From the NCBI GenBank assembly GCA_030431255.1, contig JAUIJL010000012.1:186001-250000 (forward strand): a DNA stretch of 64,000 nucleotides, given 5' to 3'. A program made the position numbers and the translations under genes. Positions within the stretch are counted from its first letter, which is position 1. Each line of letters begins with the position of its first letter. Positions 49,348-52,358 of the stretch are shown here, one piece after another. The stretch comes from Thermoanaerobaculia bacterium (GTDB lineage Bacteria; Acidobacteriota; Thermoanaerobaculia; Multivoradales; J023). The notes beneath the pieces are model-generated. The model was not told the DNA's origin. It ran no database searches and was given only the letters and a program-made list of their open reading frames with translations.

Positions 49348-49618
49348 AATCCCCCCTGTGAGCGAATCCTCCCTAGGGACACGCTTGCCCCCGCCCGCCA
49401 GGCAAGCGCATCCGACGTAGGGACGGGGCTTGCGTCCGCTAGACAAGCTGCGTTCTGCGCATCTATGAACCTAAAAAAAGGGGCGGCGCGCCCACGGCTC
49501 GCCGCCCCTACCCATGTGCTGCCAAACCCCGTTCATAGGGGACTAGCTCCGAAAATGTTTCAGCTGTGGCTCAGTGGATCGGTGGCTCCGTGAATTCACA
49601 AATCAGTGGATCCACAAA
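49348..49618. repeat. REP-like palindromes at the left edge of the islet
   Basis: GTAGGGACGGGGCTTGCGTC (49417-) matches the REP unit at 12311. GGGGCGGCG/CGCCGCCCC (49480-49508) is a perfect 9-bp hairpin. Near 49383 GCTTGCC and GGCAAGC make another. No gene is seen in this stretch. Confidence 0.65.
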
Positions 49619-50245
49619 TCAGTTGATCGGTAACTCCAACCGGTCCGCGTAGCTCAGCAACCGAAGGGTGACCACATGCAGCGCTTCACCGCCACCCCCT
49701 TCGCTGACCATGCGTCCCTGGGCGAGGCCGATCAACGCTTCCAAATCGAAGTCTTTGTCACCCGACGGGCTCAATACCTCGTTCGGATCGCTCCACTCGC
49801 GTCCGCGGACCACCGCGTCGATCAATGCGTCGAGCTGCTGCTCCGCCACCAGGGCCGCCATCGGCGCTAGCGAAGCGACACTCCACGGATCCGTGGACTT
49901 CATCCGCTCGGGCAAGCCCGCGTCGTCACACAGCTGCCACAGCCGTCCAAGCTGACCTCTTGCTCCTTCCAGCTCCAGAACGGCCTTCGTTCCGGACCCA
50001 CCGGCATCTTCAAGCAGCTGGGCCAGGTCTGCTTCACTCGGTATCCAAGCTTCCAACACCGCCGCATGCAGTGACCCATGGCTCTGAAGTGTCTTCAGCA
50101 TCAGCCAGAACAACGCCCGAAACGACCGCGGGCGTTCCGAGCTGCACAATGCCGAGATCAGAGTCTCCAGCTGCTCCGGTTTTAGGGAATCCGCTCGATG
50201 CTTTGAATCCGAAATAAATCGGCTGAGCACAAATTTTCCGTCCAT
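49619..50245 (-). CDS. unrecognised protein, left flank of the short-peptide cassette
   Basis: 208 residues from the ATG at 50245, about 11 bases behind AGGGG; the frame is open further to 50416 but that part looks non-coding. It is helical and acidic, without signal peptide or membrane segment (RALFWLMLKTLQSHGSLHAAVLEAW; VLELEGARGQLGRLWQLCDDAGL; ALIGLAQGRMVSEGGGGEALHVV). No family is recognised. It diverges from the duplicated 19-codon ORFs, with the 20-bp palindrome at 50372 between them, so both sides could share a regulator. Confidence 0.55.
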   Translation of the reverse strand: MDGKFVLSRFISDSKHRADSLKPEQLETLISALCSSERPRSFRALFWLMLKTLQSHGSLHAAVLEAWIPSEADLAQLLEDAGGSGTKAVLELEGARGQLGRLWQLCDDAGLPERMKSTDPWSVASLAPMAALVAEQQLDALIDAVVRGREWSDPNEVLSPSGDKDFDLEALIGLAQGRMVSEGGGGEALHVVTLRLLSYADRLELPIN

Positions 50246-50368
50246 CTCGCGCCGAATCCCCTGCCAAACCCGAAAAAAGGGTGGGGCCTGCCCCTTGCGA
50301 CCGGCACAAACCCCGATGTGTTGATGGTGAGCAGAGACTAACCAGCCCACAGTCCCGATGTCTCCGAT

Positions 50369-50395
50369 TTGTACCGACTGGGTAGTCGGTATTAT
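50369..50395 (+). promoter_or_regulatory. core promoter overlaid by a perfect 20-bp palindrome
   Basis: TACCGACTGGGTAGTCGGTA (50372-50391) has perfect 8-base arms and a GGGT centre. It occupies the spacer between TTGTAC (50369) and TATTAT (50390), 15 bases apart, a position typical of repressor or MerR-type sites. The ACCGAC/GTCGGT arms recall TetR-family operators. Transcription would start near 50402 and run through the two 19-codon ORFs. Confidence 0.55.
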
Positions 50396-50514
50396 CGTCG
50401 GTGATCTGTAGGACACATCTCACTCACACGGAGGTCATATCCGAGACCTTCCTCACAACACAGAAAGGAGCTCCTCAATCGCAAAACCGCCGGGATCGGA
50501 TGGCACAGCCGACC

Positions 50515-50575
50515 GGTCCGGCTCGGGAGCCGGACGGAGCCGGACGTGGTGAGGAAACCCGGCAACCAAGAGAAT
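50515..50575 (+). other. structured leader of the short-peptide transcript
   Basis: TCCGGCT/AGCCGGA form a 7-bp hairpin with a CGGG loop (50517-50534), and GAAACCCGGCAACC follows at 50552-50565. That 14-base segment is identical to a signature of SAM-I riboswitches, but I cannot find the remaining conserved parts (AGAG, GGAGGGA, a P1 partner), so this stays an observation. Confidence 0.3.
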
Positions 50576-50605
50576 TTCCAATCGTGTTCAACGAAGGAGC
50601 GAACG

Positions 50606-50665
50606 GTGACTATTCAGAGCCAAATCAAAGCCGGTACCTACGGCATCTTTGTTCCTGAAGGCTGA
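50606..50665 (+). CDS. 19-codon peptide gene, cassette copy 1
   Basis: GTG start six bases behind GAAGGAG, then 19 codons and TGA. Peptide: MTIQSQIKAGTYGIFVPEG. It aligns with copy 2 without gaps; ten residues are identical (IQS, KAG, the central G, and the terminal PEG). No signal peptide or membrane segment is present. Synonymous codons differ between the copies (CAG/CAA, GGT/GGC, GAA/GAG) while the amino acids are kept, which argues for selection on the peptide. A hairpin (50683-50701) follows. No known peptide family is recognised; secreted signal, RiPP precursor or regulatory leader are all possible. Confidence 0.7.
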   Translation: MTIQSQIKAGTYGIFVPEG

Positions 50666-50682
50666 GTCTCGGAACGGGTTCG

Positions 50683-50701
50683 GGTATCCAATCCCGATAC
50701 C
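50683..50701 (+). other. hairpin after peptide copy 1
   Basis: GGTATC and GATACC are perfect 6-base arms with a 7-base loop, 18 bases after the stop. The sequence aligns with the hairpin after copy 2, so it belongs to the duplicated cassette. Confidence 0.6.
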
Positions 50702-50774
50702 TTGAGCCCCTCAGGGACCGCCCAAGACTAAAAACCGACCGAATCTCTAACTATGCCAAATGAAGGAGTAAGCA

Positions 50775-50834
50775 ATGATCATTCAAAGCCGAGTCAAAGC
50801 CGGCGCCCTGGGGCTTTGCATCCCTGAGGGTTGA
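50775..50834 (+). CDS. 19-codon peptide gene, cassette copy 2
   Basis: ATG start six bases behind GAAGGAG, the same spacing as copy 1, and again 19 codons and TGA. Peptide: MIIQSRVKAGALGLCIPEG. Differences from copy 1 are conservative (Q/R, I/V, I/L, V/I), apart from a cysteine at position 15 where copy 1 has phenylalanine. The start lies 169 bases after that of copy 1, and the bases before the Shine-Dalgarno site and after the stop also align, so the whole cassette is a tandem duplication that has since diverged. Confidence 0.7.
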   Translation: MIIQSRVKAGALGLCIPEG

Positions 50835-50849
50835 ATCCCAAGCTCAAAT

Positions 50850-50874
50850 CGGGGTATCAGACCTTGATGCCCCG
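50850..50874 (+). other. hairpin after peptide copy 2, overlapping the TPR gene end
   Basis: CGGGGTATCA pairs with TGATGCCCCG (10 bp, one T-G) around a 5-base loop, 15 bases after the stop. The right arm encodes the last codons of the convergent TPR gene on the other strand. It can end both transcripts, though no T-run is present. Confidence 0.6.
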
Positions 50875-51888
50875 AACCTCACGGTCCAAACCCACAAACG
50901 CTCGCCTCGCCCGATAAGCTGAAAGTATGCTCATTTCTGATTGAAGCCCAAGAGCCCTTGCAAGCTCAACTGCCGCGTCACACTCCGACGCTGCGCGGGC
51001 AGAATCGGCCATAGCATCATGGACCACCGCCAGATCAACGCTGACTAGTAGAGCGTCGCGCAAATAGCAATCCCCACCAACCTCATAGAAACGATCTCTT
51101 ACTTTTTCCAGCTGCCTAACCGCCTGGCGGTGAGATCCCAAACGGCCGTTGATTTGGCCCTCTATCCAGTCCAGGTAAATCCAACCTGTAGAGCGATAGC
51201 GACCGCTCCCCGTTCCCCTCAGCTGTCGCTTTACGGTGTCGATCAAGTTATAGGCAGCTCTGAGATCCTCGGTGCTTCCTGTCCCCGCGAGCAGCGCGTG
51301 TGCGACACTTTGAACCCCACTTATGAACCACCGCTGATCCTTCTTGCAATCCAGAAGCGTCAAACCGAGTCCTGCATCATCAGCGCTCTTTTTGTAGTCT
51401 CCCTTGAGCCCATAGATCTTTGAGCGGACTATAAAAGAGCAGCCGAGAGCCGAGCCCTGCAACATCTCGAACGACCGATTGATCGCCATCAGAGCGTCAT
51501 CGAATTGCAGCTCCATCAGATTGAGCACCGCTTTACGTTGTAACACCCCTCCGCGCACCTCATCGGCAATCGGCATCGCCAACGCCCGCTTATAGGCATC
51601 CTGGGCCTTGTCATAGCGGCCGTTTCGTCGATAGGAGCTACCTAGGATATCCAACGCTTGTCCCTGAGCATCTATCGACAGATGAAGGCTGAATTCATAG
51701 AGCAGCAACGCAGCCTGGAGACCCACCTGCGGGGATTGCTCGTAAAGCTCCTTGCATCGATCCGCGAGCAGCTCGAACGCCTCCTCGTTCCTGAACGACT
51801 CCCGCTCCACGATCTTGTGAATGTCCGTCACCGACGCCCCTCGAATGCTCCGGAGCATCCATTCACGGGATACGGATTTCCGCGCCAT
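50857..51888 (-). CDS. TPR-repeat protein convergent with the short peptides
   Basis: 343 residues, ATG six bases behind GGAGG. Residues 1-60 are basic and helical (SVSREWMLRSIRGASVTDIHKIVE), without a clear helix-turn-helix. From about 60 to 330 helical pairs of TPR type run on (QALDILGSSYRRNGRYDKAQDAYKRAL; RKAVLNLMELQFDDALMAINRSFEML; GWIYLDWIEGQINGRLGSHRQAVRQLEKV). No signal peptide. Base composition is visibly less GC-rich than in the flanking housekeeping genes, suggesting transfer. Peptide receptors of the RRNPP type are TPR proteins, so binding of the adjacent peptides is an attractive guess, without direct support. Confidence 0.65.
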   Translation of the reverse strand: MARKSVSREWMLRSIRGASVTDIHKIVERESFRNEEAFELLADRCKELYEQSPQVGLQAALLLYEFSLHLSIDAQGQALDILGSSYRRNGRYDKAQDAYKRALAMPIADEVRGGVLQRKAVLNLMELQFDDALMAINRSFEMLQGSALGCSFIVRSKIYGLKGDYKKSADDAGLGLTLLDCKKDQRWFISGVQSVAHALLAGTGSTEDLRAAYNLIDTVKRQLRGTGSGRYRSTGWIYLDWIEGQINGRLGSHRQAVRQLEKVRDRFYEVGGDCYLRDALLVSVDLAVVHDAMADSARAASECDAAVELARALGLQSEMSILSAYRARRAFVGLDREVRGIKV

Positions 51889-52268
51889 CTTCGACCTCCC
51901 TCAGTGCTTTCACTAAAAGGATAGTCGAAAACTCCCGGAGATGCCTACAAGATGTGACCAGAAAGGTCATATTGCCCTCTTTGCGATGGGCCGCTCCTGA
52001 AACGATTTTCTGCTTGAAACACCGTCCACGACACGAAGGTCTGAGAGGTCGATTTCTATCTCTAGAAACGAAAAGGTTTCTTATCGTGTTCGATCCAGCT
52101 CAGCTCAATCGGCTCCGCTTGCGTGGGAAAAATCGAAGTTGAAGTTCCATGACGATTCAAATATGCTATTTCAGCATGAACCACAGCACGCACATCCTCG
52201 ACCCCCACGAGCAGGCTCGCGGTCTTCGGCTATCGCCGTGTCGGGATGAAAGAAGAGAGGAAGCGAGT
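51889..52268. other. 380-base gap with an inverted repeat in front of the TPR gene
   Basis: No gene is seen. TGACC-AGAAA-GGTCA at 51955-51969 is a perfect 5-base inverted repeat about 70 bases upstream of the TPR start and could be an operator. The stretch is AT-richer than its surroundings. A frame starting at 52149 (MTIQICYF...) has no ribosome site and runs antisense through serS. Confidence 0.5.
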
Positions 52269-52358
52269 TGGCGGAGGGAGTGGGATTCGAACCCACGGAC
52301 CACGTTAATGGTCAACGGTTTTCAAGACCGTCGCTTTCGGCCGCTCAGCCATCCCTCC
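52269..52358 (-). tRNA. tRNA-Ser (anticodon UGA)
   Basis: Ninety bases including an encoded CCA. Acceptor arms GGAGGGA and TCCCTCC pair fully; the D-arm reads GGCTGAGCGGCC; the anticodon stem ACGGT/ACCGT encloses CTTGAAA with anticodon TGA; a long variable arm (GACCATTAACGTGGTC) marks class II; the T-arm is GTGGGTTCGAATCCCAC. It lies 48 bases behind serS on the same strand. Confidence 0.96.

Follow-up and report, generated by a model that had tools for sequence, protein, structure and literature searches.

Short-peptide genes paired with TPR-protein genes in Acidobacteriota: a candidate propeptide-receptor system outside Bacillota

We studied a 64,000-nt stretch of DNA from a Thermoanaerobaculia bacterium (Acidobacteriota; assembly GCA_030431255.1, contig JAUIJL010000012.1, positions 186,001 to 250,000 of the forward strand), hereafter called the window, with positions counted from its first nucleotide. 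At 49619-52268 it holds an islet in which two genes for very short peptides face a convergent gene for a tetratricopeptide repeat (TPR) protein. The pairing of peptide and TPR genes is strongly supported. Judging from sequence, we consider it likely (probability about 0.7) that they form a cognate propeptide-receptor pair working like the RRNPP systems, outside Bacillota. That is, these Acidobacteriota probably signal with peptides in a manner so far described only in Gram-positive bacteria. The initial annotation had put forward an RRNPP-like peptide/TPR pair as a hypothesis; its pairing part is now well founded on co-occurrence, while signalling is what we infer from it.

Peptide genes adjoin TPR genes in the genome and its relatives

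The TPR protein has paralogues within the same 10.19-Mb genome (G000; in the following, C-numbers denote its contigs, L-numbers loci and G-numbers genomes). At all close loci of this genome (8/8; seven with an intact TPR gene, for which profile A4 gives E <= 5.9e-121, and an eighth with a truncated one) a peptide with a shared C-terminal motif adjoins the TPR gene. Beside the TPR gene, the C31 locus carries two 19-residue open reading frames (ORFs), MKVKTDVLSGAYGGVLPTG and MKTTTSISSGIAGGMVPTG, and the C39 and C13 loci one each (MTVKSQVQSGQMGGLTPIG and MQVKTKIASGIGGGEVPIG, respectively); these peptides end in P-T-G or P-I-G. Two further loci also bear a gene that we call H (see below), one with MNLQTNLRSGAQGFIVPTG and MRVGTTMKTGAQGVIVATG, the other with MQVKTSATAGLSGTLVPIG followed by the truncated TPR gene. 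When a profile of eight peptides from this genome was run over the whole genome, we obtained nine full-length matches, all at close TPR loci. Eight were members of the profile, while the ninth, MNVQTTVIAGLPGLIIPNG beside the TPR paralogue on C29, was found blind; the scan gave no further full-length match. The last close paralogue (C37:129764) has, instead of the 19-residue form, a convergent 99-residue ORF; its product carries a Sec-like signal and has EVGPGMVPIG as its C-terminus.

A TPR profile search over 72 genomes of the order identified close homologues in G334 (same genus) and in G397 and G398 (same family). A peptide is present at 14/18 of the respective loci, comprising nine forms of at most 19 residues, e.g., MTVKTLVRSGHGPYIVPEG and MHVTTAVRSGHGPGIIPSG, as well as five longer ORFs in which we see Sec-like signals. 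Where the 19-residue form is absent, its place is taken by a precursor of 64-119 residues that carries a Sec-like signal and in most cases has the same motif at its end; overall, the relatives' peptides and precursors span 14-119 residues. The motif ending is found on the Sec-like precursors of L005, L137, L139, L142 and L149; Sec signals were assigned by visual inspection together with a simple home-made rule. When named loci of the isolates OFTM223 and OFTM268 were fetched by TPR sequence alone, the 19-residue form was found just upstream in 5/5; all five coincide with members of the set of 18 loci and were reached here by a second route. TPR homologues that usually lack the cassette would have spoken against a pair; the counts in the genome itself (8/8) and in its relatives (14/18) point the other way.

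The initial annotation had also objected that the peptides lack a secretion signal. This holds for the window peptides, which show no visible Sec signal, but weighs less as an objection, given that the relatives' precursors combine a Sec-like signal with the same C-terminal motif.

A conserved C-terminal motif marks the peptides

The C-terminal consensus comprises about 8-9 residues, G-P-x-V/I-V/I-P-x-G, located at the stop codon in most peptides. The C-terminus is conserved but contains variable positions. It occurs on two N-terminal types: one is the 10-residue segment MxVKTxVxAG, the other a Sec-like signal peptide. For counting, we defined a strict motif as G-x(1-3)-hydrophobic(2)-P-x-G-stop and used 20 loci (L137-L156), namely the 18 relative loci and two distant TPR loci of the own genome, neither of which has a motif peptide. 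The strict motif ends 12/1602 frames within 700 bp of the TPR gene vs. 0/4544 elsewhere in the same loci. Within the window it ends 1/2409 frames, which is peptide 1 itself. A relaxed motif is noisy (10/2404 in control loci, 9/822 in the window), and the argument therefore rests on the strict form together with position.

Since loci already seen had served to refine the motif, the independent test is a hold-out with the rule fixed beforehand. In 20 further, unseen loci a near match was present in 15/20, with 17/449 ORFs near the TPR gene vs. 8/844 far from it (p = 9e-4). The reversed motif, used as control, gave p = 0.5. By inspection, about 13 of the 15 positives look genuine.

Layout of the islet

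The features of the islet are as follows.

49619..50245 (-): gene H, 208 residues, no known family
50266..50312 (-): terminator-like hairpin with T run between the conserved box and the H start, attenuator-like
50313..50329 (-): conserved box CACCATCAACACATCGG in the H leader, present at 6/6 H copies
50606..50665 (+): peptide gene 1, GTG start, 19 codons, VTIQSQIKAGTYGIFVPEG (first residue read as Met), Shine-Dalgarno (SD) sequence AAGGAG 6 nt upstream
50676..50708 (+): hairpin after peptide gene 1, without T run; fold z -2.5 (50660-50730)
50775..50834 (+): peptide gene 2, ATG start, 19 codons, MIIQSRVKAGALGLCIPEG, SD sequence AAGGAG 6 nt upstream
50849..50875 (+): hairpin after peptide gene 2, extending into the 3' end of the TPR gene; fold z -3.7 (50830-50890)
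50857..51888 (-): TPR gene, 343 residues, proposed peptide receptor; TPR_2 and TPR_8 matches and an all-helical model
52269-52358 (-): tRNA-Ser(TGA), following the TPR gene

The order given in the initial annotation, i.e., the peptide cassette, the convergent TPR gene, the divergent gene at 49619-50245 and tRNA-Ser, was recovered at all positions. Only 22 bp separate the stop codons of the TPR gene and peptide gene 2, and gene H diverges from the peptide genes. The block is also, as had been proposed, poorer in G+C than its surroundings (0.561 vs. a window mean of 0.628; less than 1% of 2650-bp stretches are lower). The REP-like repeats named as its border did not hold up: 49479-49509 is an inverted repeat with 14-bp arms that has one poor second copy within the window. 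Without a repeat family in the window, we rejected this border, and it plays no role in what follows.

Between peptides 1 and 2, 5 codon differences are synonymous and 8 non-synonymous, and 6/19 residues are shared. Given these codon differences and the peptides at all eight close TPR loci of the genome, the islet is more than a chance product.

The TPR protein

A domain search of the 343-residue protein returned TPR only (TPR_2 with 28.5 bits, cut-off 27; TPR_8 with 27.7 bits, cut-off 25.7) and no helix-turn-helix (HTH) domain. The missing HTH, noted at the outset as a difficulty, is thus real for this protein but carries little weight as an objection, because homologues have a fused or adjacent XRE-type HTH and Rap receptors lack an HTH as well. 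In L165 and L162b a weak, sub-threshold XRE-type HTH is fused to the TPR part, while in L156 (own genome), L170, L173 and L174 the TPR gene lies directly downstream of a small HTH gene, with HTH_3 over cut-off in L174. The HTH gene of L156 (G000:C3:33900-39700) is of XRE type and precedes a distant TPR homologue; no motif peptide was found at this locus. The TPR homologue of L157 has an N-terminal zf-HC2 domain over cut-off. A motif search found no sigma-factor neighbours of zf-HC2 TPR proteins.

The AlphaFold model of the window protein (six sequences) is a continuous, all-helical repeat superhelix (pLDDT 81.4, pTM 0.75). Its full-length fold matches include Rap of phi3T (8rst; Z 20.0, root-mean-square deviation 6.1, 277 residues aligned), Rap with its competence factor (4gyo; Z 19.3), 4i9c (Rap-Phr type), NprR (5dbk; Z 19.1) and NprR with NprX (4gpk; Z 18.7).

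Gene H and its leader

Six copies of H are present in the genome, all at peptide/TPR loci (6/6); those aligned are 50-56% identical to the window copy. H has no Pfam or NCBIfam match, and relatives were found neither in 395 other genomes of the phylum nor in a genome contig search. We thus rejected H as a known family; its single-sequence model (pLDDT 41) was not used. Every copy (window 50266-50329 (-); L020-L024) shows the same order of a box CACCATCAACACNNNGG, a terminator-like hairpin with T run and the start codon, with a TAGNNTC element preceding the box. Genome-wide we find seven occurrences of the box, six at H and one antisense inside a coding sequence; the reversed control gives none. 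The H leader is therefore a possible attenuator or riboregulator. Since it reads like an attenuator, H is a natural candidate for a regulated output in this genome; it is likewise the first candidate for a partner or target of the TPR protein, to which it is linked by position alone.

Wider family and other uses of the N-terminus

Beside distant TPR homologues in other families of the order, we find small ORFs with G-x-x-(I/L/M)-(D/E)-P-(N/D)-G, several of them in tandem. The largest number of copies is held by a 90-residue precursor in L165 with five (GPLIEPNG, GPLIEPSG, GPLIDPGG, GPLIDPHG, GPIIEPHG); tandem copies are also found in L162, L159, L184, L185, L188, L192 and L198. The precursors matched no known family. 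A5 was dropped for the pattern scan as too diverse.

In the sister order, the TPR family is present in 19/19 genomes. The strict motif is absent near its TPR genes, where other endings are in use. At 9/12 loci a Sec-like small ORF lies within 700 bp of the TPR gene; the respective density of 0.78 per kb vs. 0.054 in control loci (14x) is descriptive, since the signal rule was written after some of the ORFs had been seen. Examples are four tandem, secreted-looking precursors of 60-62 residues beside a TPR gene (L216:3049-3818 (+)), which end in or near DDI[IV]IPRP, e.g., DDIIIPRP, and the VRIAPPTG repeats of L214. No TPR relatives were found in viral contigs.

The MxVKTxVxAG start also precedes unrelated C-terminal parts, namely FPW[IV][DN] on C42 and others on C24 and in G380, G238 and G063. 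This occurrence with unrelated C-termini suggests that the segment serves as a leader for export or processing. On C42 (L044:4997-5431 (-)), four tandem 16-residue ORFs, MNIQSDIKAGLFPWID, MNVQSKVNAGSFPWVN, MNIQSRVKSGNFPWID and MNVTTDIRSGFYPWID, each with an SD-like sequence, face in convergent orientation the gene of a rhomboid-like protein whose C-terminus is TPR-like. On C24 (L050:1501-1581 (+)), a 26-residue SD-led ORF, MVIKTQVKAGDVTVPACDGSSKEAGY, joins the same N-terminus to a different C-terminus. Further SD-led short ORFs with this start are found in L087-L089 (G380), L090 (G238) and L091 (G063), including the tandem MKVQTAVSAGLRAQIIESG and MKVQTTVSAGLRAEIIESG; no TPR gene was recognised beside them in the stretches read. 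Over the phylum, the N-terminal pattern alone yields many spurious matches and was not used as evidence beyond SD-led cases.

Discussion

RRNPP systems share a five-point signature, i.e., a propeptide of 10-100 residues, its export via Sec (PptAB for SHP/PrgQ), a receptor of 250-500 residues, TPRs, and gene adjacency of -60 to 400 bp (PMC10075063). The window peptides (19 residues each), the length of the proposed receptor (343), its TPRs (TPR_2 and TPR_8 over cut-off, TPR-like model) and the 22 bp between the stop codons all agree with it. The N-terminal HTH of the RRNPP transcription factors (PlcR, NprR, Rgg, AimR) is absent from the window protein.

With the RRNPP(A) systems of Bacillota (Rap-Phr, NprR-NprX, PlcR-PapR, AimR-AimP), the pairs described here have in common adjacent propeptide and TPR genes, a C-terminal mature peptide (as proposed here), a Sec-like signal in many relatives, tandem repeats in precursors, and an HTH on some receptors. 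They differ in their host, a diderm phylum, in the conserved P-x-G ending, in the extra gene H, in receptor types that include a zf-HC2 domain or are accompanied by a separate HTH, and in window peptides without Sec signal. Rap-Phr is closest in that its TPR protein has no DNA-binding domain, and the full-length fold matches include 8rst, 4gyo and 4i9c; in our case, however, no response regulator is known as target and the pheromone motif is another. The streptococcal SHP/Rgg and leaderless communication peptide (LCP)/RopB systems likewise pair a TPR regulator with adjacent, very short peptides that lack a Sec signal, and SHPs exit through PptAB (PMC10075063, PMC10518010). In contrast to these regulators, the window receptor has no HTH. 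The TPR superhelices of MalT domain III and of LGN type resemble it in fold (Z 19-20), but no pairing of such proteins with small secreted peptides is known.

For the proposed pair, a short propeptide would be made and processed such that its C-terminal 8-9 residues, freed by proteolysis, become the ligand. Propeptides would be exported, including the 19-residue forms without Sec signal, and the ligand would get into the cytosol either directly or by way of an oligopeptide permease; the own genome has 13 SBP_bac_5 oligopeptide-binding matches. There, it would bind the groove of the TPR superhelix and change the activity of the TPR protein. As the window receptor has no DNA-binding domain, it would, like Rap, act through a partner protein, for which H comes first into consideration.

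Several observations weigh against this proposal. Four of the 18 relative loci (L138, L145, L147, L154) yielded no peptide, in L141, one of the five longer ORFs, the motif is internal rather than terminal, and a Sec signal is missing from the peptides of the window itself. Distances between receptors correlate with those between peptides (r = 0.43, p = 2e-4), but not significantly within one genome (p = 0.17) or within G397 and G398 (p = 0.14), and shared ancestry may therefore explain the correlation. TPR superhelices unrelated to pheromones score similarly to or higher than the pheromone receptors (APPBP2 Z 22.8, TSK/BRU1 22.6, MalT 19.9, LGN 19.6), and in a sequence search against solved structures designed TPRs are best, with NprR only at E 0.0014. 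Given these ties, the modelled fold allows peptide binding but does not establish descent from RRNPP receptors.

Among the alternatives, peptides that act as purely intracellular TPR ligands or switches and are never exported would explain the fixed length of the 19-residue forms, their missing Sec signal, and the leaderless forms in most close pairs. We nevertheless consider this unlikely, because homologous TPR proteins pair with Sec-like precursors that have the same C-terminal motif. Still less probable is that the small ORFs and hairpins are cis-acting leader peptides that merely attenuate expression of the TPR gene, as might be suggested by the many loci in which ORF and TPR gene share a strand, with the ORF immediately before the TPR gene and a hairpin after the ORF. 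In the window, L007, L020, L005, L137 and L139, the peptide gene is convergent with and downstream of the TPR gene and therefore cannot be its leader; nor would one expect leader peptides to have a conserved C-terminus, to carry the motif in tandem or to come as Sec-like precursors. Slightly more doubtful again is a reading in which the peptides are secreted and either resemble bacteriocins or are made on ribosomes and modified, with the TPR protein serving for immunity or maturation. The short leader-like MxVKTxVxAG segment common to several unrelated C-terminal classes (PxG, FPWID, others) might indicate this by its resemblance to leader and core. However, the loci read show no conserved neighbour that is evidently a modification enzyme, a protease or an exporter, the C-terminal motif is conserved, in contrast to the diversification seen in toxins, and cytosolic TPR proteins with HTH or zinc-finger fusions better suit regulation.

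Beyond the cognate pair, we give even odds to the broader picture of a class of Acidobacteriota with a large, many-coded peptide network. Here, each genome would hold many paralogous pairs, each made up of a TPR protein and a propeptide that is secreted or leaderless, with outputs via a fused HTH, an adjacent HTH, a zinc finger or a partner protein, and with C-terminal codes that differ between neighbouring orders (VPxG, DPNG/EPNG, IPxG, IPRP); it might have arisen independently of RRNPP.

Intracellular peptide signalling via TPR receptors has been described only in Bacillota and their mobile elements (PMC10075063, PMC12700828; open PMC literature), and RRNPP_detector has a published application to Firmicutes and viruses. 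Among open PMC papers, we found no report of such pairs in Acidobacteriota. The C-terminal motif makes synthetic ligands immediately testable. If the proposed pairing of propeptide and receptor is true, propeptide/TPR signalling would have arisen or spread outside Gram-positives, in a diderm phylum, and the peptides would be the first candidate peptide language for Acidobacteriota, an abundant and little-studied phylum.

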